Assembly (NCBI RefSeq): GCF_002283365.1
Contig: NZ_MQWD01000001.1
Location: forward strand, 4,509,203 to 4,556,473
From: Rubrivirga marina
GTDB taxonomy: Bacteria; Bacteroidota; Rhodothermia; Rhodothermales; Rubricoccaceae
Length of the DNA stretch: 47,271 nt
Reading direction: 5' to 3'
Positions 1 to 44,640 of this stretch are shown one piece after another. How positions within the stretch are numbered: the first letter of the stretch is position 1; the number at the start of each line of letters is the position of its first letter. The position numbers were made by a program, and so were the translations under genes. Under the pieces are notes generated by a model. That model made no database searches. It worked only from the letters and a program-made list of their open reading frames with translations, and was not told the origin of the DNA.

Positions 1-1320
1 GTGATGCGCCGCGCCGCCCTCTTCCTCGCCGTCCCTGTCCTCGCCCTCGCCGTCGCCGGGTGCGACTCGGTCCTCGACGTCGAGCCGCCGAGCCAGCTCA
101 CGAGCACGATCGCCATCGAGGACGCCAACGGCGCCCGCAACGCCCTCCGGGGCGCCTACAGCGCGCTCCAGTCCGGCTCGTACTACGGCGGCGACCTCGT
201 CTTCTTCGGCGACCTCCTCGCCGACAACACGACCCACACGGGGACCTTCACGTCCTTCGCCGAGGCCGACGCCAACACGTTGCTCGCCACCAACGGGTCG
301 GTCGAGGGCTTGTACGAGTCGCTCTACTTCGGGATCGGCATCACGAACCAGATCCTCCAGCGGGTCCCCGCCCTCGACGACCTCGGGGAGACGGAAAAGA
401 ACGAGATCCTCGGCGAGGCCCACTTCCTGCGGGCGCTCCACTACCACAACCTCGTCAAGCTCTGGGGCCCCGTTCCCATCGTCACCACGACGCTCTCGAG
501 CGTTGAGGAGGCCTCCCAGGTCACGCGGAGTCCGGTCGACGCCGTCTACGCCCAGGTCCTCTCGGACCTCCAGGAAGCCGAGCGCCTGATCACGGACGCC
601 GACCAGACGAAGCAGGCGTCGCTGGGCGCCGTGAAGGCCCTCCTCGCCCGCGTGCACCTCTACCGCGGCGAGTGGACCCTCGCCGAGCAGCAGGCCGACG
701 AGGTGATCGCGATGGGCTACCGCCTCGCAGACGCCTACGGCGACCTGTTCACGCCGGACGCGGAGACCCCCGAGGCGATCTTCTCGCTCGACTTCAACAC
801 CCAAGACTTCAACAACTTCGGGTACTACTTCGAGGTCCGCCGCGAAGTCCGGCCGACGCCCGACCTCTACGACGCCTACGAGAACGAGGACGCGCGCCGG
901 GCGTGGTCCATCGAGCAGAGCTCGACCGGGCGCCTCACGGGGACCAAGTACCCGACGACGACCGGTGAAGAGGACCTTCACGTGCTCCGCCTCGGCGAGG
1001 TCCTCCTGATCCGAGCCGAGGCGCTCGCTCGGCAGGGCCGTCTCGCGGACGCGGTCGACGCCTACAACGCGCTCCGCGTCCGCGCCGGCCTCGCCCCCCA
1101 CGTGCTCGGCGTCGACGTCTCGACGCCGCAGGACGTGCTGGCGGCCATCTGGCACGAGCGCCGCCTCGAACTCGCCTTCGAGGGCGACCGCTGGCCCGAC
1201 CTCGTCCGGACCGGCCGGGCCACGGACGTCCTCGGCATCCGGGAGTGCCAGGTGCCCTTCCCCATCCCCCAGCGGGAGCTGAACGTGGCTCCGAACCTGG
1301 AACAGAACCCGTCCTGCTAG
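1..1320 (+). CDS. RagB/SusD family nutrient-uptake outer-membrane lipoprotein
   Basis: SusD-type surface lipoprotein that would cap a SusC TonB-dependent channel and bind oligomers for uptake. The protein is 439 aa and starts GTG-ATG at the window edge. It has a short basic n-region, a hydrophobic stretch and a lipobox with Cys near residue 21 (AVAGC). The N-terminal SusD-like domain (about 25-230) carries the TPR-like helices typical of the fold (EAHFLRALHYHNLVKLWG, LLARVHLYRGEW). The C-terminal half ends in the usual ERRLELAFEGDRWPDLVR and FPIPQREL motifs. It is somewhat short for SusD (often 450-550 aa). The SusC partner is expected upstream, outside the window. The next gene, 16 nt downstream on the same strand, is a lipoprotein cyanophycinase, so the bound ligand may be a cyanophycin fragment rather than a glycan; that is inference. 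Family assignment is secure; the exact start (GTG at 1 or ATG at 4) is not. Confidence 0.93.
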   Translation: MMRRAALFLAVPVLALAVAGCDSVLDVEPPSQLTSTIAIEDANGARNALRGAYSALQSGSYYGGDLVFFGDLLADNTTHTGTFTSFAEADANTLLATNGSVEGLYESLYFGIGITNQILQRVPALDDLGETEKNEILGEAHFLRALHYHNLVKLWGPVPIVTTTLSSVEEASQVTRSPVDAVYAQVLSDLQEAERLITDADQTKQASLGAVKALLARVHLYRGEWTLAEQQADEVIAMGYRLADAYGDLFTPDAETPEAIFSLDFNTQDFNNFGYYFEVRREVRPTPDLYDAYENEDARRAWSIEQSSTGRLTGTKYPTTTGEEDLHVLRLGEVLLIRAEALARQGRLADAVDAYNALRVRAGLAPHVLGVDVSTPQDVLAAIWHERRLELAFEGDRWPDLVRTGRATDVLGIRECQVPFPIPQRELNVAPNLEQNPSC

Positions 1321-1336
1321 CCCCGGCACGAGCCCT

Positions 1337-2197
1337 ATGCTCCCCCGCTCCACGGCCGTTCTCCTCCTGCTCCTCGCCGCCGGCTGCACGGGCGCCGGGC
1401 GCGTCCACGGCGCCGCGCCCGTCTCCCAAGGCAAGCTGTTCATCATCGGCGGGGGCAGCCGCCCGCTCGCGATGGTCGAGCGGATGATCGAGGAGGCCGG
1501 ACTCCGCGACGACGGGTACGTGGCCATCCTCCCCATGTCCAGCTCCGAGCCGGACAGCGCGGTGATCTGGTCGGGCGAGCAGTTCGCCGAGTTGGGCGTC
1601 GAGGTGACTGGGTTCAACTTTCAAGCGGGCGCCCCCCCTCCCCCCACATGGCTCGACTCCCTCCGCCAGGCGCGCTTGATCTACATCTCCGGCGGAGACC
1701 AGGCCCGGTTCATGGACGTCGTGTCCGGGACGGCCATCGAAGACGCCATCCGCGAGGCGTACCGATCGGGGAGCCTGATCGGGGGGACGAGCGCCGGGGC
1801 CGCCGTGATGAGCGCGCAGATGCTCACCGGCGATCAGCGCAAGCACCCCGAGTACACCTCGACCTACGAGGTGCTCGAGGCCGACAACATCGACCTCGCC
1901 CCCGGCCTCGGCCTCCTCACGGGCGCCATCATCGACCAGCACTTCGTCCGACGGAGCCGGTACAACCGCCTCCTCACCGCCGTCACCGAGTTCCCCGAGA
2001 TCGTCGGGGTGGGCATCGACGAGTCCACGGCGATCCTCGTGGAAGGGGGACGGGCCGAGGTCGTCGGGGAAGCCCAAGTGGTGGTGGTGCAGAACCCCGG
2101 CCGCTCGGCCAACGAGCAGGATGGGAAGCTCGGCGCCCACGGCCTCCGCGTGGACGTGTACCTGCCGGGCGAGACGTTCGCGCTCGACGGGCGCTGA
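1337..2197 (+). CDS. Exported lipoprotein cyanophycinase (peptidase S51)
   Basis: Cyanophycinases hydrolyse multi-L-arginyl-poly-L-aspartate to beta-Asp-Arg dipeptides. The 286-aa protein has a signal peptide with lipobox Cys17 (LLAAGC), so it should sit on a membrane, probably facing the periplasm or surface. All S51 landmarks are present: GGDQ at 119-122, the nucleophile elbow GGTSAGAA with Ser152, DQHF with His202 followed by three spaced Arg (about 206, 208, 211), and the GIDES acidic residue Glu229. The Gln of GGDQ, the DQH group and the three Arg correspond to the substrate pocket described for the Synechocystis enzyme. It follows the SusD gene by 16 nt and is probably cotranscribed with it, which supports a joint role in external cyanophycin degradation and uptake. 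An alternative is a related beta-aspartyl peptidase, but the intact DQHF/Arg set favours cyanophycinase. Confidence 0.9.
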   Translation: MLPRSTAVLLLLLAAGCTGAGRVHGAAPVSQGKLFIIGGGSRPLAMVERMIEEAGLRDDGYVAILPMSSSEPDSAVIWSGEQFAELGVEVTGFNFQAGAPPPPTWLDSLRQARLIYISGGDQARFMDVVSGTAIEDAIREAYRSGSLIGGTSAGAAVMSAQMLTGDQRKHPEYTSTYEVLEADNIDLAPGLGLLTGAIIDQHFVRRSRYNRLLTAVTEFPEIVGVGIDESTAILVEGGRAEVVGEAQVVVVQNPGRSANEQDGKLGAHGLRVDVYLPGETFALDGR

Positions 2198-2232
2198 GCC
2201 CGCCGCCCGTTTGGGGACCGCCGACGGCGGAC

Positions 2233-4224
2233 CTATCGAGCGCCGAGCGTGACCCTCTGATGCCAGACGGCGGCCCCGACGCGCACCCGGACGACGTACA
2301 GGCTGGCGGGGAGCCCGCGGAGGTCCAGCGTGACCCGAGCCTCACCGGCAGCGAGAACGCCGAGGTCCCGCCGAAGCACCTCGCGGCCGACGAGGTCGTA
2401 GAGGGCGAGCGCCGCGGCTCCCCCCGTCCCGACGTCGAAGCGCAGGGCCGCCCGGCCGGTCGTCGGGTTTGGATGGACGAGGAGGTCGCCCGTCGTCGCT
2501 CCCTCCGCACCCGGCTCTGAAGCCGTGGGAGCGGAGGCAAAGTCGAAGGACTCCCCATCGGCAACGACGTGAACGAACGCCCCGACCAGGGCCGGGTTGT
2601 TCCGCCGCGCGGGGTAATCGACGAGGTCGACGGAGCGAGCGTCGAGCACGAGCGTGGGCATGGCCCCCTCCATGGTCACCGTGCTCCCCTCCACGGCGAG
2701 CGTACTCCCGTCCCCGAGGAGCACGCCGTAGGACGCACGGCTCTGCGCGAGGCCCCACGCCAGCCCGGTGACCTGGTTCTCCCAGTGGCAACGGTCGACG
2801 TCGAAGGCGAGGGGCATCACGACCAGACCGCCGGTCAGATTGAGGCCGGGCGCGAGGTCGAGCGCGCCTCGATAGGAGGCGTCGCACCGGCTCTCCGTGT
2901 TGAGAATGCTCACTTGGCCAACGGCACGGGCATCGGTGCCAAGCATGAGGGCGGGGACGCCGGCTGCGAGTCGGCCGCGCAGGGCGGCGCCCACGGCAGT
3001 CCCCGCGTCGGCCAAGGCGGCGATCTCGCTCAGATCATTCGCGACCCACACCTGCGCCTCGCAGTCGCGGACCGCGTCCGCGAGGCCGGCGTCGCCCTGG
3101 CTCCCGGCATCGAGACCGACCGCCAGAACCGGCTGGCCCGAATCAGCCATCGCGGACGCCACAGCTGAAGCGGGGGCGGCATCGGGGCGCGAGACCACGC
3201 AGACGAGGGCATCCGGGGGCAGGCGGCTCTGAAGCTGCCCCACGCTCCCCCCAGCGGCGAGCCAGGCGTCTGCGTCACCGCTCCCGTCGAGGACGAGAGG
3301 GAAGGCTGGGGCCTCGAACGGGACGGCCGCGTACGACTCTCCCGTCCCGGGCCCTCCGACGACCGTGCCGTTGGAGACCTCCACCCGGTACCCCTCGGTG
3401 AGTTGGACGAGTCGAACGTCGGAGAGGGAAAGGGAGTGGGCAGGCTCCACGGTGGCCTCCGTCCGGTCCGTCGGATACAAGAGGGTGACGGCGCCTCCGC
3501 CCAGCACCTCGCCTACGCCGTCCGGGGTGACCGCGAGGGCCGTCCCATACGAGAGCCCAATCCCCGTCACCCACCGCCCCTCGTCGGCGTGGTAGCGCGC
3601 CAGCATGGCGAGCAAGCGCCCGAGCCGCCCGCGCTCGTCGAAGTGGGTGTCGGCCAGGGTGCCGGGGAGCACCGAGAGGAAGTCGTCGGTGAGAGAGAGG
3701 TCCGGCGTCGTGGGCACGAGGAGCGCCTCACGGGAGGAGACGCTGCCGCGCCGAGCGTCGAAGACGACCTCGCTGAGCACGGCCGCCCCGGCGCTCGTCC
3801 CCCCGAGGACGCCGCCACGGTCGAAGACGGTCTGGAGCGCCTCCTCGATGAGGGTCCCCTTCCAGCGACTGACGTAGCGCCACTGGTCGCCGCCCGGGAG
3901 AAACACGCCGTCGGCGGCGAGGACCGCGTCACGGTTGGCCGGGTCGTTGGCCTCGGCCTCGGACGCGATGGCGAGGTAGGTGACCGTCGCGCCCTCGTCG
4001 GCAAGGCGGCCCGTGATGGATGTCCCCGGGTCGCTCGTGTAGTCGAGGACGACAACCCGCTTGCTCGGCGCGTGATCGACGAACCAGGCGTAGGCCCCCG
4101 GCGCCTCGCTCCCTCCCCCCACCAGCAAGACCGAGCCCTGCGCTTGAGCCCCCCCTGCCAGCGCGAGAAACGCGAGTGCCAGTCCGTACACGGACCGGGT
4201 GCATCGTCTGACAACGGGGGTCAT
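2233..4224 (-). CDS. Secreted cyanophycinase-like protein with duplicated, degenerate S51 domain and T9SS sorting tail
   Basis: I chose the ATG at 4224 (663 aa) because it puts a signal peptide (residues about 8-29, ending GGAQAQ) at the N-terminus; longer in-frame starts add implausible Arg-rich sequence. The first S51 domain (30-290) keeps GGDQ (111-114) and GGTSAGAA (Ser144), but DQHF is DTHF (192-195) and the GIDES segment reads GIGLSYG (221-227), so the usual catalytic acid and a pocket Gln are missing. A second region (about 350-580) repeats the fold in order: a segment resembling GTAIEDAI, then LGTDARA where GTSAGA should be (Asp431 replaces Ser), APGLNL for APGLGL, and LLGDGSTLAVEG for GIDESTAILVEG. 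It looks like a dead copy. The last about 80 residues are a T9SS type A sorting domain starting HPNPTTGRAALRF. The gene converges on the lipoprotein cyanophycinase, 35 nt apart. Confidence 0.85.
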   Translation of the reverse strand: MTPVVRRCTRSVYGLALAFLALAGGAQAQGSVLLVGGGSEAPGAYAWFVDHAPSKRVVVLDYTSDPGTSITGRLADEGATVTYLAIASEAEANDPANRDAVLAADGVFLPGGDQWRYVSRWKGTLIEEALQTVFDRGGVLGGTSAGAAVLSEVVFDARRGSVSSREALLVPTTPDLSLTDDFLSVLPGTLADTHFDERGRLGRLLAMLARYHADEGRWVTGIGLSYGTALAVTPDGVGEVLGGGAVTLLYPTDRTEATVEPAHSLSLSDVRLVQLTEGYRVEVSNGTVVGGPGTGESYAAVPFEAPAFPLVLDGSGDADAWLAAGGSVGQLQSRLPPDALVCVVSRPDAAPASAVASAMADSGQPVLAVGLDAGSQGDAGLADAVRDCEAQVWVANDLSEIAALADAGTAVGAALRGRLAAGVPALMLGTDARAVGQVSILNTESRCDASYRGALDLAPGLNLTGGLVVMPLAFDVDRCHWENQVTGLAWGLAQSRASYGVLLGDGSTLAVEGSTVTMEGAMPTLVLDARSVDLVDYPARRNNPALVGAFVHVVADGESFDFASAPTASEPGAEGATTGDLLVHPNPTTGRAALRFDVGTGGAAALALYDLVGREVLRRDLGVLAAGEARVTLDLRGLPASLYVVRVRVGAAVWHQRVTLGAR

Positions 4225-5578: not shown

Positions 5579-7513
5579 CTACAGGAACGGCGCGAACTCA
5601 CCGGCCAGCGACTCCGCGAACGCACGCGACAGGTGCCCGCCGTCCCGGTAGCGGACGAGGTCGCCATCGCGCGGACCGCACGTCCCCCCCGGACACACGA
5701 CGCCGGAGAGATCGAGGACGTCGACGCCCGGGACCGACCGCGCGGCCGCGGCCTGGGCGTCTACCCGCTCGGCATCGTCGGCGTCGGAGCCGCGAGGTCG
5801 ACAGTCCGGATCCAAGGCCGTGCCCGGTCTCCACGCTACCTGGGCGAGGCACGCTGGCACGTTGATCTGTGCGGCCGGCGGGTCAACGATGAGAACCGTG
5901 CGCCCGGCGAGCTCGACCAGATCCTGGAGCGTCGCGCGCGTGCCCCCGGCCCACACGTCCGGGGCGAGGTCGTAGGCGTTCGACATCGACACGAACACCG
6001 CCTCGGGGCGCATCGCCCCGATCGCCTCCATCGCCGACGCTCGCCACACGGCGCACGCGACGTCGTCTCGGCCCAGAACCTCGTTGTAGAGCACGGGCAC
6101 GTCGGCGACGGGGCAGGCCGAGAGCGTGTAGACGACGAGGCGCCAGCCGGCCGCCTCGGTCGCCGCGCGGAGGGCCGGAAACCACTGGCCCGCGTGGCTG
6201 TCGCCGACGAGGACGGCGACCCGCTCCGCCTCGGGGTCGCCGTAGGCGCACTCGACGAGCGTGGCCTCGCCGTAGGGATCGCAGCCGTCGTCGTAGATCT
6301 GGGGGAGGTCGGCGCGGACCTCGGCGAACGCCGCCTGCCCCGGCCGCTCGGCCCACCCCGCGCTCGCCCACCACCACCCGAGCGTGAGCGCCGTGAGCGC
6401 GACCGTCGCGCCGACCGTCCACCCGAGGCTCCGCCGCGGACGTCCGACGAGCGCCGGCGCGTACCGAATCGGCGACTCGACAAACCGGTACGAGAGCCAC
6501 GCGGGCACGATCGAGGCGACAGCGGCCAGTATCCGCCCGCCGAGCGTCATCGGCCCCAGGGCGGACTGCGCGAACACGAGCGCGGGCCAGTGCCAGAGGT
6601 ACCACGAGTACGACAGCGTCCCGATCCACTGGAGCGGACGGGCCGACAGCGCGCGGACGCACGAGGCGTCATCGCGCGTCCCCGCGCGCAGGACGGCGAC
6701 CGTCGCGAGCGCTGGCAAGAGCGCGGCCACGCCCGGGAACGGCGTCGACGCGTCGAGCAGCACGCCAGCCAGGGCGATGCCCGCGAGTCCGCCCCAGCCC
6801 AGAATCTCGGCTCGTGTTCTCGACCCGCCGGCCGGCACGAGCACCGCGAGCGCGCCGACGCCGAACTCCCACGCCCGCGTTGGCGAGAGGTAGAACGCCC
6901 ACGCCCGCCCGACCGGCGCGTACGTCAGCGCCGTCGACAGGCCGAACGACAGCGCCGTGACCGCGCCCAGCACGAGCCCGAGGCGGCGGAGGCTGGGCGT
7001 CCGAGCGCCGCGCCACAGCCCGAGCCCGAGGAGCACGAGGACCGGCCACGCCAAGTAAAACTGCTCCTCGACGCCGAGCGACCACGTGTGGAGCAGCGGG
7101 TGCTCGGCCGCGCGCGGCCCGTGGTAGTCGGGCGCCCAGTCCGCGAACCCGACGTTGCTGAGGTAGAGCGCGGCGAGCGGCCAGAGGCGGGCCACGTCGC
7201 GCTGCTCCATCGGCGCGTAGAGGACGCCCGCCAGGGCGCCCGTGACGAGCAGGACGACGAGGAGCGCCGGCACGAGACGCCGCGCCCGCCGCGCGTAGAA
7301 CCGCCACAGGTCGATCCGCCCCTCCCGCCCCGCCTCGTCCACCAGCAGCCACGTGATGAGGTACCCCGAGACGACGAAGAACACGTCGACCCCGACGAAC
7401 CCACCGTCTAGGCCGGGCACCCCGGCGTGGAAGGCGACCACGAGGAGGACGGCGACGGCCCGGAGCCCCTCGATGTCCGGCCGGAACCGGGGGCGCGGGA
7501 GAAGCTGGGGCAC
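5579..7513 (-). CDS. Membrane acyltransferase (acyltransferase-3 family) with C-terminal SGNH domain
   Basis: OafA/YrhL-type enzyme that would transfer acetyl or another acyl group to a cell-surface glycan. The N-terminal part (about 1-390) is a ten-helix acyltransferase-3 domain with RPDIEGLRAVAVLLVVAFHAG (catalytic-type His), GGFVGVDVFFVVSGYLIT and a RxxR pair (RRARRLVPALL). The C-terminal part (about 430-644) is a periplasmic SGNH hydrolase-like domain: GDSHAGQW holds the Ser nucleophile and DGGHLSRAFA the terminal Asp-His pair. The start is uncertain. An in-frame ATG lies at 7675 but reads through the repeat at 7671-7700 and Arg-rich sequence, so I prefer the GTG at 7513, which puts the conserved RPDIEGLR close to the N-terminus. 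The gene stands alone between the LTxxQ protein and the ABC exporter. The substrate cannot be read from the sequence. Confidence 0.9.
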   Translation of the reverse strand: MPQLLPRPRFRPDIEGLRAVAVLLVVAFHAGVPGLDGGFVGVDVFFVVSGYLITWLLVDEAGREGRIDLWRFYARRARRLVPALLVVLLVTGALAGVLYAPMEQRDVARLWPLAALYLSNVGFADWAPDYHGPRAAEHPLLHTWSLGVEEQFYLAWPVLVLLGLGLWRGARTPSLRRLGLVLGAVTALSFGLSTALTYAPVGRAWAFYLSPTRAWEFGVGALAVLVPAGGSRTRAEILGWGGLAGIALAGVLLDASTPFPGVAALLPALATVAVLRAGTRDDASCVRALSARPLQWIGTLSYSWYLWHWPALVFAQSALGPMTLGGRILAAVASIVPAWLSYRFVESPIRYAPALVGRPRRSLGWTVGATVALTALTLGWWWASAGWAERPGQAAFAEVRADLPQIYDDGCDPYGEATLVECAYGDPEAERVAVLVGDSHAGQWFPALRAATEAAGWRLVVYTLSACPVADVPVLYNEVLGRDDVACAVWRASAMEAIGAMRPEAVFVSMSNAYDLAPDVWAGGTRATLQDLVELAGRTVLIVDPPAAQINVPACLAQVAWRPGTALDPDCRPRGSDADDAERVDAQAAAARSVPGVDVLDLSGVVCPGGTCGPRDGDLVRYRDGGHLSRAFAESLAGEFAPFL

Positions 7514-7817
7514 GGGGGACGCGGGGGGACGGCCGCCCAAGGTCGCACCGCCCCGCCCGCCTCGGCGTCCCGTTCGGTAGGGTCGTCGGCTGCACTCTTG
7601 CACGCACCAGAACCCGCTCGCTGCTCTGGCGAACCGGCTCGTGCCCGTCCAACGCACCGCCCATTTTGTTGTCATCCTGAGCGAACGCGAAGGATCTCGC
7701 CGGACTCGGGCGCCCCGTGCCTCGACACACAGGAGGACATGAGTCGAGGGCTGACTCGAACGAGACGTGCCCCGGCGCCCCGGTCGGCTGGGGCGCCGAG
7801 GCGGGGCCGGCCAGCGC
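7514..7817. other. Intergenic region with one dispersed repeat
   Basis: A 304-bp gap between the start of the acyltransferase and the end of the ABC permease gene, both on the minus strand. It should contain the acyltransferase promoter and the permease terminator, but I recognise no convincing -35/-10 pair. The only recognisable element is the repeat at 7671-7700. The open frames that cross it have Arg/Pro-rich translations typical of non-coding GC-rich DNA. Confidence 0.6.
7671..7700. repeat. Dispersed intergenic repeat of the TCATCCTGAGCG...GAAGGATCT type
   Basis: The segment has the hallmark arms TCATCCTGAGCG and GCGAAGGATCT, an imperfect inverted repeat (ATCCT/AGGAT). I recognise it from intergenic regions of many unrelated bacteria; read in reverse it gives the spurious peptide RSFAFAQDD often seen in mis-called ORFs. 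Here it lies in the 304-bp gap upstream of the acyltransferase. Its function is unknown; it may be a small mobile or REP-like palindrome. Only one copy was seen in this window. Confidence 0.65.
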
Positions 7818-18301: not shown

Positions 18302-19555
18302 CTACGAGTACACCGCGAACTGGTCGCGCTTGGCGTGGAGGTTCAGCGCGATGGCCAGCATCGCCGTGTTCGCCAGCAGCGCCGAGCCGCCGTACGAGAT
18401 GAACGGCAACGGGATGCCGATGACCGGCATGAGCCCGATCGTCATCCCGACGTTGATCAGGATGTGGACGAGGAAGATCCCCGTCATCCCGGCGATGAAC
18501 AATCGTGGCAGGGCGAAGCCGGCCTGCACTCCCAGCCCCGCCATGCGGATCAGGAGGAACGCGAACACGAGGAGCACGGCCATCGAGCCGAGGAACCCGA
18601 ACTCCTCGCCGATCACGCAATAGATGAAGTCGGTCGAATTCTCCGGGATGTAGGCCAGCTGCGTCTGCGTCCCGTTCGTGAACCCCTTGCCGAAGAGTCC
18701 GCCTGAACCGATCGCGGCCTTGGCCTGGATCACGTGGAAGCCGGCCCCGTAGCGGAACGCCTCCGGGTCGTCGAACGCCACGAGGCGGTCGACCTGGTGC
18801 GGCTCGAGCACGCGGAACAGCCCGAACCACGCCGCGATCGCGATCGCCCCGACGCCGACGAGCATCAGCGCCGACATGGCCTTCGAGCGCGTCCAGAGGA
18901 GCATCCCGACGGTCGCGAGGCCCACGAAGATGGCCGCGTAGGCCGGGCTCACGATCACGAGGTAGACGGCCGCCGCCGCGCCGCCCGCCAGCGCCATCCA
19001 CGGGAGCGGGACGGCCCCGCTCCAGAACATCATGATGGGGATGAGCGCCAGGAAGACGAGGCCCGTCCCGGTGTCGTTCTGCATCACCACGAGGACCGCC
19101 GGGATCAGGATCAGCAGGGCGGCCCCGACGAGGTAGGGCACGCTCCCCCGGCGGGCCTCCTTCCGCGACAGGAGCGCCGTCACGGCGAGGACGGTCCCCA
19201 CCTTCGCGATCTCGGCCACCTGCAGCCCGACGGGCCCGATGTACAGCCAGCTCTTGGCGCCGTTCACCTCGCGGCCGAACGCGAGCGCGGCCCCGAGCAG
19301 CCCGAGGCAGACCACGTAGGCCACGGGCGCCGCCTTGACGATGAACCGCGCCGGCAGCAGCAGGATGATCCCCAACACCGCCGCCGAGATGCCGAACCAC
19401 TGGAGTTGGCGGTTGAAGTTCTGCTGGACCGACTCGAGCAAGAACTCCCGCGCGGGCCCGTGCGTCGCGCTGTAGATCGCCGTCAGCCCGATACCGACCA
19501 GGGCCACCCACAGCAGGATGCTGACCCAGTCGAGGTTCTTGTACCAGGGACGCAT
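18302..19555 (-). CDS. rodA: SEDS peptidoglycan glycosyltransferase RodA
   Basis: Polymerises lipid II for cell elongation together with PBP2. The 417-aa protein has about ten membrane helices. SEDS landmarks include GREVNGAKSWLYIGPVGLQVAEIAKV (95-118), QNDTGTGLVF with the conserved Asp161 in the large loop region, the GKGFTNGTQTQLAYIPENSTDFIYCVIGEEFGFLG block and the C-terminal GIPLPFISYGGSALL. It lies 87 nt downstream of mrdA on the same strand, the standard pbpA-rodA order. The mreBCD genes usually found beside them are not in the window. Confidence 0.97.
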   Translation of the reverse strand: MRPWYKNLDWVSILLWVALVGIGLTAIYSATHGPAREFLLESVQQNFNRQLQWFGISAAVLGIILLLPARFIVKAAPVAYVVCLGLLGAALAFGREVNGAKSWLYIGPVGLQVAEIAKVGTVLAVTALLSRKEARRGSVPYLVGAALLILIPAVLVVMQNDTGTGLVFLALIPIMMFWSGAVPLPWMALAGGAAAAVYLVIVSPAYAAIFVGLATVGMLLWTRSKAMSALMLVGVGAIAIAAWFGLFRVLEPHQVDRLVAFDDPEAFRYGAGFHVIQAKAAIGSGGLFGKGFTNGTQTQLAYIPENSTDFIYCVIGEEFGFLGSMAVLLVFAFLLIRMAGLGVQAGFALPRLFIAGMTGIFLVHILINVGMTIGLMPVIGIPLPFISYGGSALLANTAMLAIALNLHAKRDQFAVYS

Positions 19556-19642
19556 AGGGAGTTCGGAGTTGAGAGTTGGGAGATCAGCGTTCGGGCAAGC
19601 GGGGTGACGACTCGGAACCCCGACCCCCGAACCTTGAACTCG

Positions 19643-21532
19643 CTAGATGCGGCCGACGGAGCGCTGGGCGCGGACGAACGGGATGAGCGCGTTGCGCTGC
19701 GGCGAGACGATCTGGCCGCGGAAGTACTGCTCGATCATGAGGGACGCGATCGGCGCCGCGGTCGTCGACCCGAACCCGGCGTTCTCGACGATCACGCCGA
19801 CCGCCACCTGGGGGTCGTCGACGGGCGCGTAGGCGATGAACACGGCGTGGTCCTTGCCGCGCGGGTTCTCGGCCGTGCCCGTCTTGCCGGCGACGGTGAT
19901 CTCGGGGAACTCGCCGGCCGCCGGGATCTGCGCCCGCCGCGCCGTGCCGTTCGCGACCACGGCCTCCATCCCCTCGCGGACGACCTGGAAGTTCCGCGGC
20001 TCGATCGGGATCTGCTGCGGGCGGCGGCGGGCCGGCGTCGTCGTGACGCCCGTCTCGGGGTTGGTCTGCTGCATCACGAGGTGCGGCGTCACGAGCGTCC
20101 CGCCGTTCCCGATGGCGGCCGTGTAGCGGGCGAGTTGGAGCGGGCTCGTGCCCATGTTGCCCTGCCCGATTCCGAGGTTGACGGTGTAGCCGGGGCCCCA
20201 ACCGGCCGGGAAAACGCGGTCGTAATACGACGAGTCCGGGATGAGGCCCGTCCCCTGGTTGGGGATGTCGATGGGCGCGAGCTGGCCGAAGCCGAACCGG
20301 TGGGCCCACTCGCCCCACATGTCGAGGTTCATCCGGATGCCCTCGGGGTGGGCCTCGTTGACGAACGTGTCGTTCATCAGCCGGAAGAAGAACGTGTTGC
20401 AGGACACGCGGATGGCGTCGCGGACGGCGATGTTGCCGTGGCTCCCGCCGTGGCACCGGTAGAGCCGGCCGAGGACGTAGCCGCCGCCGCAGTAGAGCGT
20501 CGTGTTCTCGTCGATCATCCCTTCCTGGAGCGCGACGGCGGCCATGAACGGCTTCCACGTCGAGCCCGGCGGGAGCGCCGTCTGGGTCGCCCGGTTGAAG
20601 TCGGGCTGCTCGGGGTTGCGGTAGAGGAAGTCGACCTCGGCCTGGGTGAACCCGTCGCGATAGATCGAGAGGTCGAAGTCGGGCGCCGAGACCATCGAGA
20701 TGACCCCGCCCGTCTTGGCGTCCAGCATCACGGCCCCGCCGCGCTTGTTGACGAACAGGCTCTCGGCGAGGGCCTGGACGCGGGCGTCGACGGCGAGCGT
20801 GAGGGCGAAGCCCGATTCGGGCTCGACGTCCTGCTCGCCGCCCTCGTACGCCTCGACCTCCATGCCGTGGACGTTCTTGAGCACGAACTCGCGCCCGACG
20901 CGCCCGCGCAGGACCGGCTCGTACTCGGCCTCGATGCCGGACTTGCCGATCCGGTCGCCGAGGCGGTAGCCCTGTTCGCGCATGGCGTCGAGTTCGTCGG
21001 AGTTGATCTCGTTGACGAACCCGAGCGCGTGCGTGAGCCGGGCGTCGCCGTGGTAGCGCCGCTGCTGGTCCTCGCGGAAGTTGATCCCCCGGAGGCGGTA
21101 CTGGTTCTCCTGCAGCCGGGCGAACGTCCAGAACGGGACGTTCTCGAGGAGCACGTCCTCCTGGTACGCCGAGCGCTCGGTGATCTCCGCGTAGCGGGCT
21201 TCGAGCTCCTCCAGGGGCCGCCCGGCCAGCTCGGCCACGAGCGGAAGGTCGGCCTCGTCGAAGTAGCGCGGCGCGACGGTCACGCTCACGGTCGTCTCGT
21301 TGTCGACGAGAAGGATCCCGTTCCGGTCGAAGATGTAGCCGCGGGCGGGCCGGACGATCTTGGTCTCGATCGCGTTGCCCTCCGCCTCGGTCGCGTACTG
21401 CTCCCGGTCGACGATCTGCATCTGCACCAGCCGCGCCCCCAGGAACGCGACGAGCCCGAGAACGAGGACGCTGAAGACGCGGTAGCGGAGGCGCGCGTCG
21501 TCGCGGGCGGTCTGGGCGAGTACGGTGGGCAT
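19643..21532 (-). CDS. mrdA: Penicillin-binding protein 2 (elongation transpeptidase)
   Basis: Transpeptidase partner of RodA, 629 aa. One N-terminal membrane span (about 18-38) is followed by a PBP dimerisation/pedestal domain with RPARGYIFDRNG (61-72). The transpeptidase domain has Ser324 in GSTWKP (SxxK), SCN at 377-379 (SxN) and KTG at 550-552. The start was set at the ATG at 21532; the frame stays open far upstream but only as antisense to the next gene. Cys348 and Cys360 flank a GGS-rich loop in the region where Gram-negative PBP2 proteins bind zinc. Confidence 0.97.
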   Translation of the reverse strand: MPTVLAQTARDDARLRYRVFSVLVLGLVAFLGARLVQMQIVDREQYATEAEGNAIETKIVRPARGYIFDRNGILLVDNETTVSVTVAPRYFDEADLPLVAELAGRPLEELEARYAEITERSAYQEDVLLENVPFWTFARLQENQYRLRGINFREDQQRRYHGDARLTHALGFVNEINSDELDAMREQGYRLGDRIGKSGIEAEYEPVLRGRVGREFVLKNVHGMEVEAYEGGEQDVEPESGFALTLAVDARVQALAESLFVNKRGGAVMLDAKTGGVISMVSAPDFDLSIYRDGFTQAEVDFLYRNPEQPDFNRATQTALPPGSTWKPFMAAVALQEGMIDENTTLYCGGGYVLGRLYRCHGGSHGNIAVRDAIRVSCNTFFFRLMNDTFVNEAHPEGIRMNLDMWGEWAHRFGFGQLAPIDIPNQGTGLIPDSSYYDRVFPAGWGPGYTVNLGIGQGNMGTSPLQLARYTAAIGNGGTLVTPHLVMQQTNPETGVTTTPARRRPQQIPIEPRNFQVVREGMEAVVANGTARRAQIPAAGEFPEITVAGKTGTAENPRGKDHAVFIAYAPVDDPQVAVGVIVENAGFGSTTAAPIASLMIEQYFRGQIVSPQRNALIPFVRAQRSVGRI

Positions 21533-21871
21533 GGGGCGTCCGGGGGCGGAGGGCCGAGGGCGATTCGGAGGGCCCTGGGTCGGGGAGCGTACGAACGCCG
21601 GCCCGCGCCGGTTCGTGCAGTCCACGGGGTTCTTCGCGGGCCCTCCGGATGTCACGGGCGCCCTTCCGACGTGCCTCCACCGGGGGCTCGGGAATCGCCC
21701 CAGCGCGCCCCCAGCGCCGGATCCGAAGAACACGACCGGCGCCGGGGGGTATGCCCACGCCCGGCCCGAGGCGGACCCGCCCGGCCCGGGCTCCGGCGTG
21801 GGGCCATCCGCCGTGCCCCCCGTGACGCCGACCGGTCCTGGCCCGGCCACTCCCTCCCGCCCCGCTCTGCC
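21533..21871. other. Divergent intergenic region without a recognisable gene
   Basis: A 339-bp region between the divergent starts of mrdA and the metallopeptidase-barrel gene. It must hold two promoters, but no convincing -35/-10 or Bacteroidota-type TAnnTTTG element is evident. Several GC palindromes are present (for example GCGCCGG...CCGGCGC around 21715-21755), of a kind common by chance at this base composition. No RNA gene is recognised. Confidence 0.5.
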
Positions 21872-24800
21872 ATGCGCTCCCGCTCCCTCCCGGCCCTGCT
21901 GGTCGCCGCGTTCCTGTTCGCGCTCGTGCCCGAGGCCCAGGCCCAGTACTTCGGCCGCAACAAGGTCCGGTACGACGACTTCGACTTCCGCATCCTCGAG
22001 ACCGAGCACTTCGACCTCTACTACTACGAGGGGATGGAGCAGGCCTCGCGCGACGTGGCCCGGATGGCCGAGCGGTGGTACGACCGGCTCTCCTCGATCC
22101 TCGGCCACGAGTTCGACGAACGGAAGTCGATCATCCTCTACGCCGACGACGCTGACTTCCGTCAGACGAACATCGCCAACATCGGCGAGGGCACGCAGGG
22201 CGTGACGGAGGGGGCCCGCCAGCGCGTCGTGCTCCCCATGGCCGGGACCTACGCCGAGACCGACCACGTGCTCGGCCACGAGCTCGTCCACCAGTTCCAG
22301 TACGACATCTCGCAGCGGAGCGGCCGGTTCGCCCAGTTCATCCGCCTCCCCCTCTTCGTCATCGAGGGGATGGCCGAGTACTACTCGGTCGGGCGGGAGG
22401 ACGCGCTCACGGCCATGTGGATGCGCGACGCCGTCCTCCGCGACGACTTCCCGACCCTCGACGACCTCCAGCGCTCCGGCGCTTACAACGAGTACCAGTA
22501 CGGCCAGCCGTTCTGGGCCTACCTCGCCGGCACCTACGGCGACCAGGCCGGCGTCCAGTTTTTCCGCACGGCGCTCGACATGCCGCTCGACTCGGCCGTC
22601 GTCGCCGTGACCGGCCTCTCCCCCGACGACTTCTCGGCCCGCTGGCGGGTCGCGCTCGAGGACCAGCTCGCGCCGCCGGCCGCCGGCCGCTCCGTGCCCG
22701 GCCCCGACCGGACCGACGAGGAGCTCGAGGCCATCGCCAAGGACCGGCGCGAGCGCGCCGAGGCCATCGCCGAGGGCGACCGCCCCGACCGGCCCCGCTT
22801 CCTCGCCTACCCCGACTCGCTCCCCCGTCTCACTGCGCAGCGCCTCCTGGCGCGAGAACGTGAGACCGGCACCATCAACATCGCGCCCCAGCTCTCGCCC
22901 GACGGCCGCTACGTGGCCTACCTCAGTGAGCTCGACCTGTTCGGCATCGACCTGTTCTTGGCCGACGCCGAGACGGGCGAGGTCCTGACCAAGCTCGAGA
23001 GCGCGACGACCGACCCACACCTTGACGCGCTCCGCTTTATCGAGAGCGCGGGCACGTGGAGCCCCGACGGGACGCAGTTCGCCTACGTCGTGTTCGCGGG
23101 CGGCGACAACGAGATCGCCCTCCTCGACGTCGACCGACGCGACGTCGTCCGCCGCCTCGCCGTCGAGGGGATCGGGGCCATCAAGGACCCGGCGTGGAGC
23201 CCGGACGGGACGCGCATCGCGTTCGCCGGCGTCCGCGGGGGGATCACCGACCTCTACGTCGTCGAGCTCGCCACGGGCGAGGTGACCCAGCTGACGAACG
23301 ACCGGTTCGCCGACCTCCAGCCGGCCTGGAGCCCGGACGGCACCCAGATCGCGTTCTCGACCGACCGTGGGGCCGGGACGGACTTCGTCCGCCTCACGTT
23401 CTCGCCGATGCAGCTCGCGCTGTACGACGTCGCGGACGGGACGATCGAGACGCTCGGCGTGTTCTCGGGCGTCAAGCACATCAACCCGGCGTGGGCGCCG
23501 GACGGCGAGAGCCTCTACTTCATCTCCGACCGGGGCGGGTTCAACGACGTCTACCGCCTCGACGTCGCCACGGGCGAGGCCTACCAGGTGACGAACCTCG
23601 CGACGGGCGTCTCGGGCATCGCCGACCTCTCGCCGGCGCTGTCCGTCGCCGAGCAGACCGGCAACCTGGCGTACTCCGTGTTCGAGGGCCAGCGCTACTC
23701 GGTCTACCGCACCGAGGCGGCGGATGCAGTCGGCACCCCGGTCGGCGGGACGGCCTCGAACGCCGCGGCCATCCTCCCGCCGGAGGACGCCTACGCCCGG
23801 TCCGTCGTCCAGAACTACATCGCCGACGCGACCGGCGGGCTCCCCGAGGCGACCACCTTCCCGACGCGCGGGTACAGCCCAAAGCTCTCGCTCGACTACA
23901 TCAGCCAGCCCCAGGTCGGCGTGGGCACCGACCCGTACTACAACTCGGGCTTCGGCATCTCGGGCGGCATCTCGTTCCTGTTCTCGGACCAGCTCTCGGA
24001 CAACGTCCTCGGCCTCGCCGTCGCCGCGCAGGGGACGTTCAAGGACATCGGCGGGCAGGCGCTCTACCTCAACCGCGGCAAGCGGCTGACCTACGGCGCC
24101 ATCGCCGGCCACATCCCGTACCTCCAGGTGTTCTACGACCGGCCGCCGCTCGAGGAGCCGGACGAGGTGGACCTCATCGGGTTCACGCGCTACTACTACC
24201 GGACGTACGTGACGCAGGCCTCCGGGCTCGCGTCGTACCCGCTCAACCAGAGCCAGCGGTTCGAGGCCGAGCTCGGGTACCGCCGCCTCGGCTACGACGT
24301 CGAGTACGACGCGTACTACCAGACCGGCTCCGGCTGCTGCGGCATCGAGCGGCGCGAGCTCGACTCGTTCTCGATCGACCCGCTCCACCTCGGGCAGGGC
24401 GGCGTCGCCTACGTCGGCGACACGTCGCTCTTCGGGTTCACCTCGCCCATCCGCGGCTCGCGCTACCGCCTCGGCGCCGACCTCACGGCGGGCTCGCTGG
24501 TCTTCGGCTCGGTCACGGCCGACGCCCGGACGTACGTCTTTACGCGCCCGCCGGGGTTCCCGCGCCGTACGCCGGTCACGCTGGCCGCCCGCCTCCTCCA
24601 CTTCGGCCGCTACGGCGCCGACGCCGAGTCCGGCCGGCTCACGCCGATCCTCCTCGGCAACCCGCAACTCGTCCGCGGCTACAACCCGCGCTCGTTCGAC
24701 TCGAACGAGACGTTCGGCGCGTTCGTCGACCGGATCTACGGCAGCCGCCTCGCGGTCGCCTCGATCGAGGCCCGGCTCCCGCTCCTCGGCGTCCCCCAGC

Positions 24801-25129
24801 TCGGGCTGATCAACTTCCCGTACCTCCCGACGGAGCTCGTCTTCTTCGGCGACGCCGGGTTCGCGTGGGGCGAGGCCCCCTACTTCGGGATCTCCGGCCC
24901 GCCGGTCGGCGGCGAGGACCTAGTCTGCGACGTCGAGGTCACGTGCTACGGCTCGACGTTCGGCGACCAGAAGCCGATCTTCTCGGCCGGCGTCTCGGCC
25001 CGCGTGAACCTGCTCGGGGCCATCATCGTCGAGCCGTACTACGCCCTGCCGTTCTCGCGCTGGGAGGTCGAGGGCGACGTGTCGCCGGGCCGCGGCGTGT
25101 TCGGCGTCAACCTCTCGCCGGGCTGGTAA
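21872..25129 (+). CDS. Outer-membrane metallopeptidase / beta-propeller / barrel fusion
   Basis: A 1085-aa exported protein with three parts. After a signal peptide (about 1-26, EAQAQ), residues 30-270 are a peptidase-MA-like zinc protease: HELVH (136-140) followed by IEGMAEYYSVG, which supplies the third ligand Glu. Residues about 330-640 contain TolB/PD40-type propeller blades, each with a WSPDGT-like motif (SPDGRYVAYL, WSPDGTQFAYV, WSPDGTRIAFA, WSPDGTQIAFS, WAPDGESLYFI). Residues about 680-1085 form a BamA/Omp85-like beta-barrel, with PQLVRGYNPRSFDSNE resembling the substrate-gating VRGY motif and a final GVFGVNLSPGW. The layout suggests a protease held at the surface or periplasm by its own barrel. 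The long open frame upstream of 21872 is spurious. Confidence 0.85.
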   Translation: MRSRSLPALLVAAFLFALVPEAQAQYFGRNKVRYDDFDFRILETEHFDLYYYEGMEQASRDVARMAERWYDRLSSILGHEFDERKSIILYADDADFRQTNIANIGEGTQGVTEGARQRVVLPMAGTYAETDHVLGHELVHQFQYDISQRSGRFAQFIRLPLFVIEGMAEYYSVGREDALTAMWMRDAVLRDDFPTLDDLQRSGAYNEYQYGQPFWAYLAGTYGDQAGVQFFRTALDMPLDSAVVAVTGLSPDDFSARWRVALEDQLAPPAAGRSVPGPDRTDEELEAIAKDRRERAEAIAEGDRPDRPRFLAYPDSLPRLTAQRLLARERETGTINIAPQLSPDGRYVAYLSELDLFGIDLFLADAETGEVLTKLESATTDPHLDALRFIESAGTWSPDGTQFAYVVFAGGDNEIALLDVDRRDVVRRLAVEGIGAIKDPAWSPDGTRIAFAGVRGGITDLYVVELATGEVTQLTNDRFADLQPAWSPDGTQIAFSTDRGAGTDFVRLTFSPMQLALYDVADGTIETLGVFSGVKHINPAWAPDGESLYFISDRGGFNDVYRLDVATGEAYQVTNLATGVSGIADLSPALSVAEQTGNLAYSVFEGQRYSVYRTEAADAVGTPVGGTASNAAAILPPEDAYARSVVQNYIADATGGLPEATTFPTRGYSPKLSLDYISQPQVGVGTDPYYNSGFGISGGISFLFSDQLSDNVLGLAVAAQGTFKDIGGQALYLNRGKRLTYGAIAGHIPYLQVFYDRPPLEEPDEVDLIGFTRYYYRTYVTQASGLASYPLNQSQRFEAELGYRRLGYDVEYDAYYQTGSGCCGIERRELDSFSIDPLHLGQGGVAYVGDTSLFGFTSPIRGSRYRLGADLTAGSLVFGSVTADARTYVFTRPPGFPRRTPVTLAARLLHFGRYGADAESGRLTPILLGNPQLVRGYNPRSFDSNETFGAFVDRIYGSRLAVASIEARLPLLGVPQLGLINFPYLPTELVFFGDAGFAWGEAPYFGISGPPVGGEDLVCDVEVTCYGSTFGDQKPIFSAGVSARVNLLGAIIVEPYYALPFSRWEVEGDVSPGRGVFGVNLSPGW

Positions 25130-40137: not shown

Positions 40138-40671
40138 ATGCAGCAGACGATCCTCGCCCTCGCCGCGATCCTCTCCTTCGCCTACCTCGCCCTCGGCCGC
40201 CAGCGTCACGACAACGACGTCGAGCGCCGGGCGATGGAGGTCGAGGCCGAGCTCGCCGCGACCGACGTCGCGCAGGCTCAGATGGGCGCCATGGAGCGCC
40301 TCGCCTTCGACGAGGACGACACCGGCCAGACGGGCGTCCGGACCGTCCCCTCCTCGGCCCCGATCGGACCCGACGCGGGGGAGACGGACCCGTCGAGCTA
40401 CGACGACGTCGACGACTGGGACGGGCACGACGGCACAGTCTCGGTGCCGGTCGGTCGGGACTCGCTCCGGTTCAGGCTCCGCGTGAGCGTCCGATACGTC
40501 CAGAACCTCCAGCCCGAATCGCCCGCGGCTGCCCCGACGCTCACCAAGGAGCTGTTCGTGCGGGCCGATGAGATCCCGCCCGCCGCGACCGACCGGACCC
40601 CAGCGCAGGCCCACCTCCGCCGCGTCGTGACGCCGGCGAGCGTCGCCACCTACATCCACCAGGGCTCATGA
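40138..40671 (+). CDS. MshD/PilV-like minor pseudopilin, copy A1
   Basis: A 177-aa protein starting MQQTILALAAILSFAYLAL: a 20-residue hydrophobic helix directly after the initiator Met, with no basic leader, no G-F cleavage site and no Glu5. It is followed by an amphipathic helix and then YDDVDDWDG (88-96), the acidic loop characteristic of MshD/PilV-type minor pilins. The middle and C-terminus (VSVRYV, TKELFVRA, LRRVVTP) match the second copy A2. In-frame ATGs at 40099 and 40105 would add a short MAIREGPDRAP leader. It overlaps B1 by ATGA. Confidence 0.72.
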   Translation: MQQTILALAAILSFAYLALGRQRHDNDVERRAMEVEAELAATDVAQAQMGAMERLAFDEDDTGQTGVRTVPSSAPIGPDAGETDPSSYDDVDDWDGHDGTVSVPVGRDSLRFRLRVSVRYVQNLQPESPAAAPTLTKELFVRADEIPPAATDRTPAQAHLRRVVTPASVATYIHQGS

Positions 40672-41432
40672 CCTTCGTCATCGACAACCTCATCGCGATC
40701 GTGGTGGGGTCCGTCCTCCTCGGCGGGCTTCTCGTCCTCCAGCAGCGGCAGCAGCATGCCGCCATCGAGGCGACCCAGCGGTACCGAGCGCAAGCGTTCG
40801 CGTCCGAGATGACGTCGAGCGTCGAGCGCGAGATCGAGAACGCGAGGAGCCGGGCCGAAACCGACCGGTTCTTCGCGGTCGGCGCCGGCGGCCAGGTCGG
40901 GCCCGACACGTACCGCTTCCGCCTCCGCCGCGACGCGACGGGCGAGTACACCGAGGCCTTCGAGTTCCCGACGGCATCGAACCCCGACGCCCTCAGCGCC
41001 TCCGGGACGATGGTCGTCGCGTACCGCGCGACCCCGACGGGCGACTCGGCCCGCGTGGATGGCGTCGTCCGCCCCCTCCTCGAGATCACGCGCTACGAGT
41101 ACCGTCGCGGCGTGGGCGCCGTCGAGACCGGGACCTACGGTCGCGTGCTCGACTTCGACGTGACCGCGCTCGCCGACGCCGACGGTGGCATGATCGCCGA
41201 GGCCGAGGTCCTCGACCCCGTTCCGCCGCGGGTCTCGCTGACGATCGTGTTCGCGCCCGAGACCGCCGGCGCCCGCGCGTCCGACCAGGCGGCGGCCCCG
41301 GCCTACTCCCTCCGCTACGCCCGGACGATCCGGATCCCTGGCGCCACCGCGCTACCGGGGGGCTTCCCGGTCGACATGGACACGGAGGGCGGCATCCCCG
41401 ACGACATCCCAGCCGCCGCACCGCCCCGCTAA
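40668..41432 (+). CDS. GspJ/MshO-like minor pseudopilin, copy B1
   Basis: A 254-aa protein whose N-terminus, MTFVIDNLIAIVVGSVLL, mimics a mature pilin (FTLIELLIAIAI) without the leader; after Met removal, Asp sits at the position of the conserved Glu5. An amphipathic helix follows (AIEATQRYRAQAF..REIENARSR), then a beta-rich domain ending in a Pro/Ala tail. It aligns with B2 at 46518 through the whole N-terminal half (FxxDxL, xAxVEATxR, ExxxxNAR, SDQAAxxP). The start overlaps the A1 stop (ATGA), so expression is coupled. Confidence 0.72.
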   Translation: MTFVIDNLIAIVVGSVLLGGLLVLQQRQQHAAIEATQRYRAQAFASEMTSSVEREIENARSRAETDRFFAVGAGGQVGPDTYRFRLRRDATGEYTEAFEFPTASNPDALSASGTMVVAYRATPTGDSARVDGVVRPLLEITRYEYRRGVGAVETGTYGRVLDFDVTALADADGGMIAEAEVLDPVPPRVSLTIVFAPETAGARASDQAAAPAYSLRYARTIRIPGATALPGGFPVDMDTEGGIPDDIPAAAPPR

Positions 41433-41556
41433 GGCCGCACGGGGCTCCGATGCCGAGCCCGTCGACCCCGCCGCCCCCCGTCCCGCTCACTACGTCTCAC
41501 GAATCGTCTAACGCCTCTCCCCGGGCGCCCCCGACGTCTCCCAGACCCCTACTCTT

Positions 41557-43656
<2,100 letters not shown>

Positions 43657-43693
43657 GCCCACGGGTCAACGGGCCATCGCTGGTCGGTAAAGC

Positions 43694-43730
43694 GCGCGGG
43701 GGAGACGGTCGATACCCGTCTCCCCCGCGC
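43694..43730 (+). terminator. Strong intrinsic-terminator-like hairpin after the A1-B1-C operon
   Basis: Perfect 15-bp stem (left arm 43694-43708, GCGCGGGGGAGACGG; right arm 43716-43730) with a 7-nt loop TCGATAC, followed by TGTTT. It lies 37 nt after the stop of the PilX-like gene and 10 nt before the next start codon. It is unrelated to the CCGCCTCG family. Confidence 0.8.
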
Positions 43731-43740
43731 TGTTTCGGCC

Positions 43741-44640
43741 ATGGTGCCTGCCCCTCTCCCGTTTCGCCTCGCCCCGCGGAGGGCCGTCGCGAACCTCCTG
43801 TTCGGGATGATCTGGGCCGAGGTCCTCGTCGTCGTGCTCGACGTCTGGCTCCACCTCGGCGGCGGCGTCGCCTCCCCCGACCTCGCCGGGTGGTTCGACG
43901 CGGCCAGCGAGCGGGGCGTCGGATCGTGGCTGTCGGTCACGCAGACGGTCCTCCTGGCCCTGACGCTCTGGGCGGTCGTGGCCGTCGTCCGCCAGTCGGG
44001 CGCAGCGCGGGCGCGCGTGGTGGGCTGGGTCGTGCTCGCGGCCTTCATGTCCTACCTCGCGCTCGACGACGGGACGCGGCTCCACGAGCGCGTGGGCGCG
44101 GCGTTCGAGGACTCGGCGGCGAGCAAGCGCGGGATCGGCGCGGCGTTCCCGAGCTACTACTGGCAGCTCGTGCTCGGCCCGGCGTTTGCCGGGATGGGCC
44201 TGTTCATGGCTGTCTTCCTCTGGCGCGAGTTCCGGGAAAGCGGGCTGTGGAAATACGTGGGCGGCGCCTTCGCCCTCCTCGCGACGGCCGTCGCGCTCGA
44301 CTTCGTGGACGGGCTCGCCGACGGGCACCCGCTCGACCTCTACGGCCAGCTCGGCTCGCTGGCGGCCGTCGAGGCCCGCGCCGCGGCGTGGTTCGAGCTT
44401 CCCGGCCCCGCCGCGGTCCTCCACCTCTCGCGGATCGTGGAGGAGAGCCTCGAGATGGCCGCGATGACGCTCCTCTGGGTCGCGTTCCTGACCCACCTGA
44501 CGCGCCTCGCACCGGGCGTCCTCCTCACGTGGGCCCCGGAGGAACCGGCCCGCTCGCGCGTCCTCCGCGCCGACCTCGCCCCCGAGCTGAAGCCGGGTGA
44601 GGCCGAGCCGTCCGCGAGGCCGAAGCCCGCCGCCGTGTGA
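43741..44640 (+). CDS. Multi-pass membrane protein with paired DD/HE and EExxE motifs
   Basis: A 299-aa protein with about six hydrophobic segments. Within or next to helices, acidic and His residues recur: LALDDGTRLHE (Asp109, Asp110, His115, Glu116) and SRIVEESLEM (Glu234, Glu235, Glu238). Similar DE..HE and EE..E patterns occur in uncharacterised prokaryotic membrane proteins, and the arrangement could hold a metal centre; no family name is certain. The C-terminus is a hydrophilic Pro/Ala/Glu tail. It ends one base before an alternative upstream GTG start of era, suggesting coupling. Confidence 0.6.
   Translation: MVPAPLPFRLAPRRAVANLLFGMIWAEVLVVVLDVWLHLGGGVASPDLAGWFDAASERGVGSWLSVTQTVLLALTLWAVVAVVRQSGAARARVVGWVVLAAFMSYLALDDGTRLHERVGAAFEDSAASKRGIGAAFPSYYWQLVLGPAFAGMGLFMAVFLWREFRESGLWKYVGGAFALLATAVALDFVDGLADGHPLDLYGQLGSLAAVEARAAAWFELPGPAAVLHLSRIVEESLEMAAMTLLWVAFLTHLTRLAPGVLLTWAPEEPARSRVLRADLAPELKPGEAEPSARPKPAAV

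Follow-up and report, generated by a model that had tools for sequence, protein, structure and literature searches.

What does a SusC-SusD pair bring into the cell when the gene behind it encodes an exported enzyme of the cyanophycinase family, S51? SusCD systems have mostly been studied for glycans. We analysed such a locus in Rubrivirga marina (Bacteroidota), at the beginning of a 47,271-nucleotide (nt) stretch of its genome, hereafter the window (contig NZ_MQWD01000001.1, positions 4,509,203 to 4,556,473). An earlier note on this DNA had proposed a SusCD locus directed at cyanophycin, with two exported S51 enzymes, and this general direction holds up. The complete cyanophycinase residues of one enzyme, the linkage of its clade to SusCD and isoaspartyl dipeptidases, and the YfcC-type and arginine-catabolism neighbours of some relatives make cyanophycin use the best reading: the locus would serve uptake and use of cyanophycin, with cleavage probably in the periplasm, and we give this a probability of roughly 0.6.

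A tight susC-susD-S51 run

The locus is composed of the following genes:

L005:10122-13178 (= G000:C1 4506121-4509177), + strand: SusC/RagA receptor (TIGR04056, 822 bits; 1018 amino acids from the ATG at L005 10122)
Window 1-1320, + strand: SusD lipoprotein (start GTG at 1 or ATG at 4; Pfam SusD-like_3 88.9 bits, SusD_RagB 87.2 bits)
Window 1337-2197, + strand: P0002, predicted exported cyanophycinase-type S51 lipoprotein (TIGR02069; 16-nt gap from the SusD stop; AAGC lipobox)
Window 2233-4224, - strand: P0003, CphE-like S51 protein with a sorting tail of the type IX secretion system (T9SS) type, convergent (663 amino acids from the ATG at 4224; an alternative longer frame starts at 4419)

The first three form a tight same-strand run, with gaps of 25 and then 16 nt, and both coordinates and models agree with the earlier description of a SusD lipoprotein followed 16 nt later by an S51 lipoprotein. 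The run extends outside the window: the susC gene on which that proposal depended is present at full length, its end lying 25 nt upstream of window position 1, giving an adjacent SusC/RagA TonB receptor and SusD lipoprotein. We examined this surrounding in L005, which covers about 13 kb before the window up to window position 5298, within an assembly (G000) of 4.98 Mb in 11 contigs. The genome has four SusC genes above the TIGR04056 cut-off and four S51 genes, and with so few copies of each, and the linkage repeated in relatives, the adjacency is more than chance. P0002 and susD may belong to one transcription unit, as they share the strand and are separated by 16 nt; a promoter scan gave 0 sites with 0.3 expected, promoter and terminator scans both being at chance level.

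P0002 carries the residues of a cyanophycinase

P0002 passes the NCBIfam cyanophycinase equivalog TIGR02069 with 152.6 bits (cut-off 126.6) and fails the PepE model with 30.1 bits (cut-off 156). Its AlphaFold2 model has a predicted local distance difference test score (pLDDT) of 92.3, and the modelled fold matches 7uqv, 3en0 and 7uqw, which are also the closest solved structures by sequence, with Z values of 32.9, 31.8 and 31.9, respectively, other S51 structures giving 18-24. According to the available part of PMC3235067, the critical residues of CphB are Gln101, Asp172, Gln173, Arg178, Arg180 and Arg183 beside the catalytic Ser132, and the putative catalytic residues of CphE are Ser, His and Glu. 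All nine catalytic or binding residues are found in P0002 (Q122, S152, D200, Q201, H202, R206, R208, R211 and E229), and they are identical in 44 out of 44 members of its clade. Its marked positions in the window, all on the + strand, are:

1385-1387: Cys17, lipobox cysteine, with 0 acidic residues at +1 to +5
1790-1792: Ser152, by alignment the counterpart of the CphB nucleophile Ser132 (role from the available part of PMC3235067)
1934-1969: D200-Q201-H202 ... R206, R208, R211, the catalytic His and binding-pocket residues
2021-2023: Glu229, putative catalytic Glu (role likewise from PMC3235067, as far as available)

The complete cyanophycinase motifs announced earlier are thus present in P0002; they do not extend to P0003, where Tyr226 occupies the position of the catalytic Glu. 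Judging from sequence and model, P0002 looks able to cut cyanophycin.

SusCD linkage of the P0002 clade

Of 395 genomes of the phylum, 96 encode P0002-like proteins (E up to 1e-15). For the comparison of neighbourhoods we drew 68 named loci from the genome collection and fetched 60 regions from the phylum search, 45 of them the highest-ranking non-self rows and 15 chosen by hand from further down. In the resulting S51 tree (164 rows, open reading frames (ORFs) below 230 amino acids or 45 bits having been left out beforehand), P0002 falls within a clade of 44 proteins, all from Bacteroidota, with a Shimodaira-Hasegawa-like approximate likelihood-ratio test (SH-aLRT) support of 100. Among the other 43 loci of this clade, 37 of which have at least 7.5 kb on both sides, 29 carry SusC or SusD within 8 kb, 27 carry SusD (25 on the same strand), 24 an IaaA or IadA gene and 19 a T-type S51 gene, matches below 150 bits for SusC, 100 for SusD and 150 for the dipeptidases not being counted.

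In the phylum draw, 15 of the 19 clade members had SusD on the same strand vs 2 of 18 other S51 proteins from the same search (p 5e-5), this control being 15 hand-picked rows plus three rows outside two clades and not a random sample. Regarding the named collection, SusD stood beside 3 of 40 other S51 genes. The order susC-susD-S51 is also found in two genomes of the same class, G273 and G167, where the S51 frame starts about 2 and about 58 nt after susD, counting from longest-frame starts. A second S51 clade, with 25 members, showed no SusC or SusD above the thresholds; many of its loci hold a TonB receptor-like frame of about 780-910 amino acids with weak matches to the SusC model.

Cargo genes beside the clade loci

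A YfcC-type permease gene is present in 16 of the 44 clade loci vs none of 35 control loci, the latter made up of the 15 hand-picked S51 rows and 20 SusC neighbourhoods. We collapsed near-copies by hand (five Flammeovirga loci to one, and L132, L133, L135, L136 and L138 to one), after which the permease remained in 12 of 36. The second S51 clade has it too, in 13 of 25 loci. These proteins pass the Pfam cut-off of the DcuC family, and their best NCBIfam model, 'putative basic amino acid antiporter YfcC', stays below its cut-off. Ornithine aminotransferase (TIGR01885, 670.7 bits) was detected in 10 of the 44 loci. L138 holds an arginase-family gene (PF00491 over its cut-off, TIGR01229 just under), and L131 genes of the arginine deiminase and DDAH families. 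The permease and arginine-catabolism genes beside some clade loci fit an arginine-rich substrate.

Other genes also recur around these loci. The five loci of the L132-L138 lineage, all of SusCD-S51 type, have genes for an M28 peptidase, a penicillin-amidase-type protein, an AsnC-type regulator and ornithine aminotransferase around S51. PKD-domain lipoprotein-like proteins lie near SusD in the S51 loci L128, L063, L070-L075 and L081, with matches to our PKD query in 13 of 44 clade loci vs 0 of 35 controls; they are candidate surface binding proteins.

Candidates for the remaining steps are encoded elsewhere in the genome

The dipeptidase that the earlier note suggested looking for upstream was not found in the locus. 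A run of cphA, a Mur-ligase-like gene, iadA and cphB is found on the same contig, 2.1 Mb away:

L007:8093-15448 (= G000:C1 about 2382092-2389447): storage operon cphA-Mur-ligase-like-iadA-cphB

In this run, cphA scores 1104 bits and iadA 363.5 (cut-off 331.25), the latter being the only iadA genome-wide (G000:C1 2382982). The Mur-ligase-like gene encodes 564 amino acids and no ATP-grasp; another genome of the order has a similar gene close to its cphA (L173). Besides, there are three IaaA-type genes, at G000:C1 4223238, 3118005 and 4130418. The first of them (L009, 4223238-4224155; Asparaginase_2) has a signal-peptide-like start, judged by eye, and could be an exported isoaspartyl peptidase. 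Outside the locus, the genome further has a DcuC-family and an arginase-family gene. From this gene content the bacterium probably makes and degrades its own cyanophycin, and with cphA, iadA, cphB and the IaaA-type genes at hand the dipeptidase needed by the import locus exists in trans.

The convergent S51 protein lacks a catalytic acid

P0003 scores 111.3 bits against TIGR02069, under the cut-off of 126.6, and its model (pLDDT 84.1) contains a CphB-like domain with Z 29.5 to 7uqv. Two positions, both on the - strand, matter here:

2236-2487: T9SS-type C-terminal domain, residues 580-663 (profile, fold and homologues)
3547-3549: Tyr226, at the catalytic Glu/Asp position

The tail match of 21.7 bits is under the cut-off of 23. 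Structurally, residues 580-661 of the model align with T9SS C-terminal domains of known structure (8qb1, Z 10.1; 8glk, Z 9.8), which is weak by itself because unrelated beta-sandwiches reach Z 8.8-9.7. All 16 aligned family members, P0003 included, match both the T9SS tail model and the cyanophycinase model at E <= 0.001. Profile, fold and homologues together bear out the convergent S51-like protein with a T9SS-type tail reported before.

The idea of two working enzymes is not supported. P0003 keeps the Ser, the His and the arginines of CphB and CphE, and it has Tyr226 at a position where 33 of the 36 members of its clade have Glu or Asp. Nine of 11 further S51 proteins of the order keep this acid, including the three nearest homologues of P0003 (in G001, G347 and G421), and it is absent in two distant ones. 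Because of the replaced acid and the score below the cut-off, we assign P0003 by sequence to the S51 family and do not class it as a working cyanophycinase; in this genome it may be impaired, or a substrate binder only. How strands and helices follow one another, together with a weak collinear hhalign profile match (E 0.0011 and 0.0047, at probabilities of 20 and 7 percent), hints at a second, degenerate S51 domain at about residues 293-575, which we do not claim.

Weighing the evidence

Several observations weigh against cyanophycin uptake by this locus. At the level of the enzyme, other S51 groups in the tree also keep the nine residues almost without exception, so that these residues mark cyanophycinase-type S51 chemistry and not the P0002 clade specifically, and the nearest solved structure, 7uqv, was deposited as 'pseudo-CphB', a name on whose implication our literature search found nothing. 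At the level of the neighbourhood, 14 of the 43 clade relatives have neither SusC nor SusD within 8 kb (the context is truncated in 6 of the 43), and the eight other genomes of the family, several of them incomplete, yielded no close homologue of P0002 (best 39%). No isoaspartyl dipeptidase was found in L005, and no permease or arginine-catabolism genes in the window locus. The ornithine aminotransferase genes come from two lineages (2 of 36 loci after collapsing, p 0.49), which weakens a general linkage to arginine catabolism.

The receptor does not belong to an S51-only lineage either. Scoring at most two matches per genome, we obtained 24 non-self SusC matches (E <= 1e-200), of which three are linked to S51, 20 unlinked and one unexamined. 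The nearest neighbour in the SusC tree, G280, on long branches, shows no S51 in the 16 kb fetched; the next-nearest ones are S51-linked. On this tree (L140 and L213 being one gene, L213 was left out) S51 linkage needs eight changes, seven of them forced by well-supported branches; still, S51-linked rows cluster, as none of 500 label shuffles was as low. Since linked and unlinked rows are mixed, we rejected SusC lineage as proof of substrate. Finally, G167, with S51, and G069, without it, have a common gene order around SusCD and a Met-zincin gene.

These last results bear on the alternative that survives best, a general RagAB-like peptide importer beside a hydrolase of beta-aspartyl or acidic peptides, for which cyanophycin would be at most one substrate of the S51 enzyme. 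Besides the G167 and G069 pair, it has in its favour that related SusCDs without S51 adjoin Met-zincin, sortilin/BNR-type or beta-lactamase-family genes, and that IadA and IaaA are described as promiscuous in the available text of PMC10206079. The arginine-rich pocket, invariant in 44 of 44 clade members, the recurrence of YfcC-type genes beside the clade and the scores of P0002 with the cyanophycinase and PepE models speak against it, and we consider it unlikely, if the first alternative to keep in mind.

Next comes digestion outside the cell, as put forward in the earlier note, with a surface-standing P0002 cutting cyanophycin and SusCD importing the dipeptides. SusG-type surface enzymes exist, and P0002 is a lipoprotein encoded beside a surface SusD. 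Surface export of lipoproteins follows a rule known from work on Capnocytophaga and Bacteroides, acidic residues after the lipid cysteine. We scored 54 SusD frames, including one gene fetched twice and one split in two frames; an acid occurs at +1 to +5 in 46 of the 47 that have a lipobox, and two or more acids in 34. The 13 lipoproteins of the S51 clade show at least one in 7 cases and at least two in 1, and P0002 has none. Moreover, 31 of the 44 clade members have a plain signal peptide only (the classes come from simple pattern matching and not from a trained predictor) and the clade proteins, with 272-318 amino acids, are too short for a T9SS tail, so they presumably stay in the periplasm. 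The missing acids and the plain signal peptides lead us to prefer oligomer import followed by periplasmic cleavage: on these sequence features P0002 more likely works in the periplasm than at the surface, and external digestion by it appears improbable. Two points cut the other way. The rule comes from other Bacteroidetes and may not hold in this class, and T-type S51 lipoproteins carry two acids in just one of eight cases, which makes them periplasmic by the same rule and leaves them unsupported as the surface enzyme; the T9SS-tailed proteins then remain as the only surface candidates.

That an S51 gene landed by chance behind an unrelated SusCD, as the absence of an orthologous SusCD-S51 locus from the family genomes (P0002 best 39%, SusC best 37-38%) and the mixed SusC tree might suggest, is very improbable, and we rejected it given the same-strand SusD in 15 of 19 phylum-draw relatives, the 16-nt gap and the S51 frames about 2 and 58 nt after susD in G273 and G167.

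A proposed route for cyanophycin

If the locus does serve cyanophycin uptake, the outer-membrane SusCD would take in cyanophycin fragments, and P0002, probably facing the periplasm, would release beta-Asp-Arg dipeptides from them. At the surface, cleavage would fall to the CphE-type S51 protein with the T9SS tail where this protein is active; here it may only bind substrate, or be impaired. Enzymes encoded elsewhere would then split the dipeptides (the IaaA-type protein with the signal-peptide-like start, the IadA from the storage operon, or both), and the resulting Arg and Asp would enter metabolism, perhaps via a YfcC-type permease also encoded elsewhere.

More tentatively, and with rather less confidence than for the locus itself, Bacteroidota may repeatedly, and from different SusCD lineages, have built a Sus-like cyanophycin system of two tiers, with a CphE-type T9SS S51 protein outside, oligomer import by SusCD and the conserved periplasmic cyanophycinase clade of 44 inside, together with a dipeptidase, a YfcC-type permease and arginine catabolism. 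The window would hold a stripped version of it in a bacterium whose genome also has a cyanophycin synthesis operon, import and storage sharing one dipeptidase. If true, the conserved SusCD-tied clade would mark Bacteroidota that can feed on cyanophycin, the nitrogen store of cyanobacteria and also of bacteria such as R. marina, and a main cleavage step would move from the surface to the periplasm. The clade gives a sequence handle to find such loci.

Other features of the window

Upstream of SusC, the opposite strand encodes a phosphodiesterase-TPR protein, one protein with a T9SS tail just below threshold, a sulfotransferase-family protein and a 2-oxoglutarate dehydrogenase, none of them related to the locus. 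Rfam at the gathering threshold gave no match in the window, and no tRNA was found in L005. Further on, the window contains:

5579-7675: Acyltransferase-3 fused to an SGNH domain
18734-25129: open frame of 2131 amino acids facing a gene for a penicillin-binding protein on the other strand; GC-rich DNA most likely gives rise to it as a shadow frame
40668-47271: several ORFs in a row, part of them with hydrophobic N-termini that resemble each other, which may form a pilin-like cluster
41557-43656 and 43741-44640: two ORFs of the preceding row, both with no Pfam match

Comparison with known systems

Regarding novelty, a Bacteroidetes strain with a cyanophycin utilisation locus has already been described in print (cited in PMC10206079, as far as its available text goes). 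The available parts of PMC10100682, PMC11573002 and PMC9723704 mention cyanophycin and SusD or SusCD and draw no link between them. Neither the clade, probably periplasmic, nor counts of its linkage to SusCD turned up in the literature searched, which lacked Ben Hania et al. 2017.

One parallel concerns Citromicrobium sp. JLT1363, an alphaproteobacterium. Here a TonB-dependent transporter lies beside a cyanophycinase and cyanophycin was proposed as substrate from the gene neighbourhood; the transporter is named and no SusD is mentioned in the part of PMC3400609 available. For P0003 the comparison is the extracellular cyanophycinase CphE (PMC3235067, available part): at the position of CphB Gln173 P0003 carries Thr, like CphE, and it keeps the Ser, His and Arg. 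What sets P0003 apart from CphE is its T9SS-type tail, an additional region in the middle and a Tyr at the catalytic Glu.

The scavenging cluster of Flammeovirga pacifica WPAGA1 is named in the available text of PMC10206079. As we read it (L075), it comprises a T-type S51 gene, SusC, SusD, a PKD-type lipoprotein, S51, IaaA, a YfcC-type permease, a second T-type S51 gene and ornithine aminotransferase, whereas the window locus keeps only susC, susD, S51 and the convergent T-type S51 gene.

The closest case is strain L21-Spi-D4, which we take to be Salinivirga cyanobacteriivorans, and whose cyanophycin transport complex is said to be likened to a polysaccharide utilisation locus in the abstract of Ben Hania et al. 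2017. Cyanophycinase genes and a transporter for scavenging are attributed to this Bacteroidetes strain (Ben Hania et al. 2017, as cited in the available parts of PMC10206079 and PMC6243061), and the latter source, in the same part, gives one monomeric and one Por-tailed S51 protein for a Balneolaeota strain and for Salinivirga. Both loci, compared by these partial descriptions and not by gene order, come from Bacteroidota and have a cyanophycinase and a transporter in one cluster with two S51 proteins, one of them Por-tailed; that of L21-Spi-D4 is said to include iadA, whereas the window locus has no dipeptidase, and the window genome also carries cphA, unlike the locus described. The idea of a SusCD-cyanophycinase locus is thus already in print and the window holds a further member of the described kind, which, as its cluster has no dipeptidase, we class as a SusCD-cyanophycinase locus working like the Ben Hania type minus one feature.

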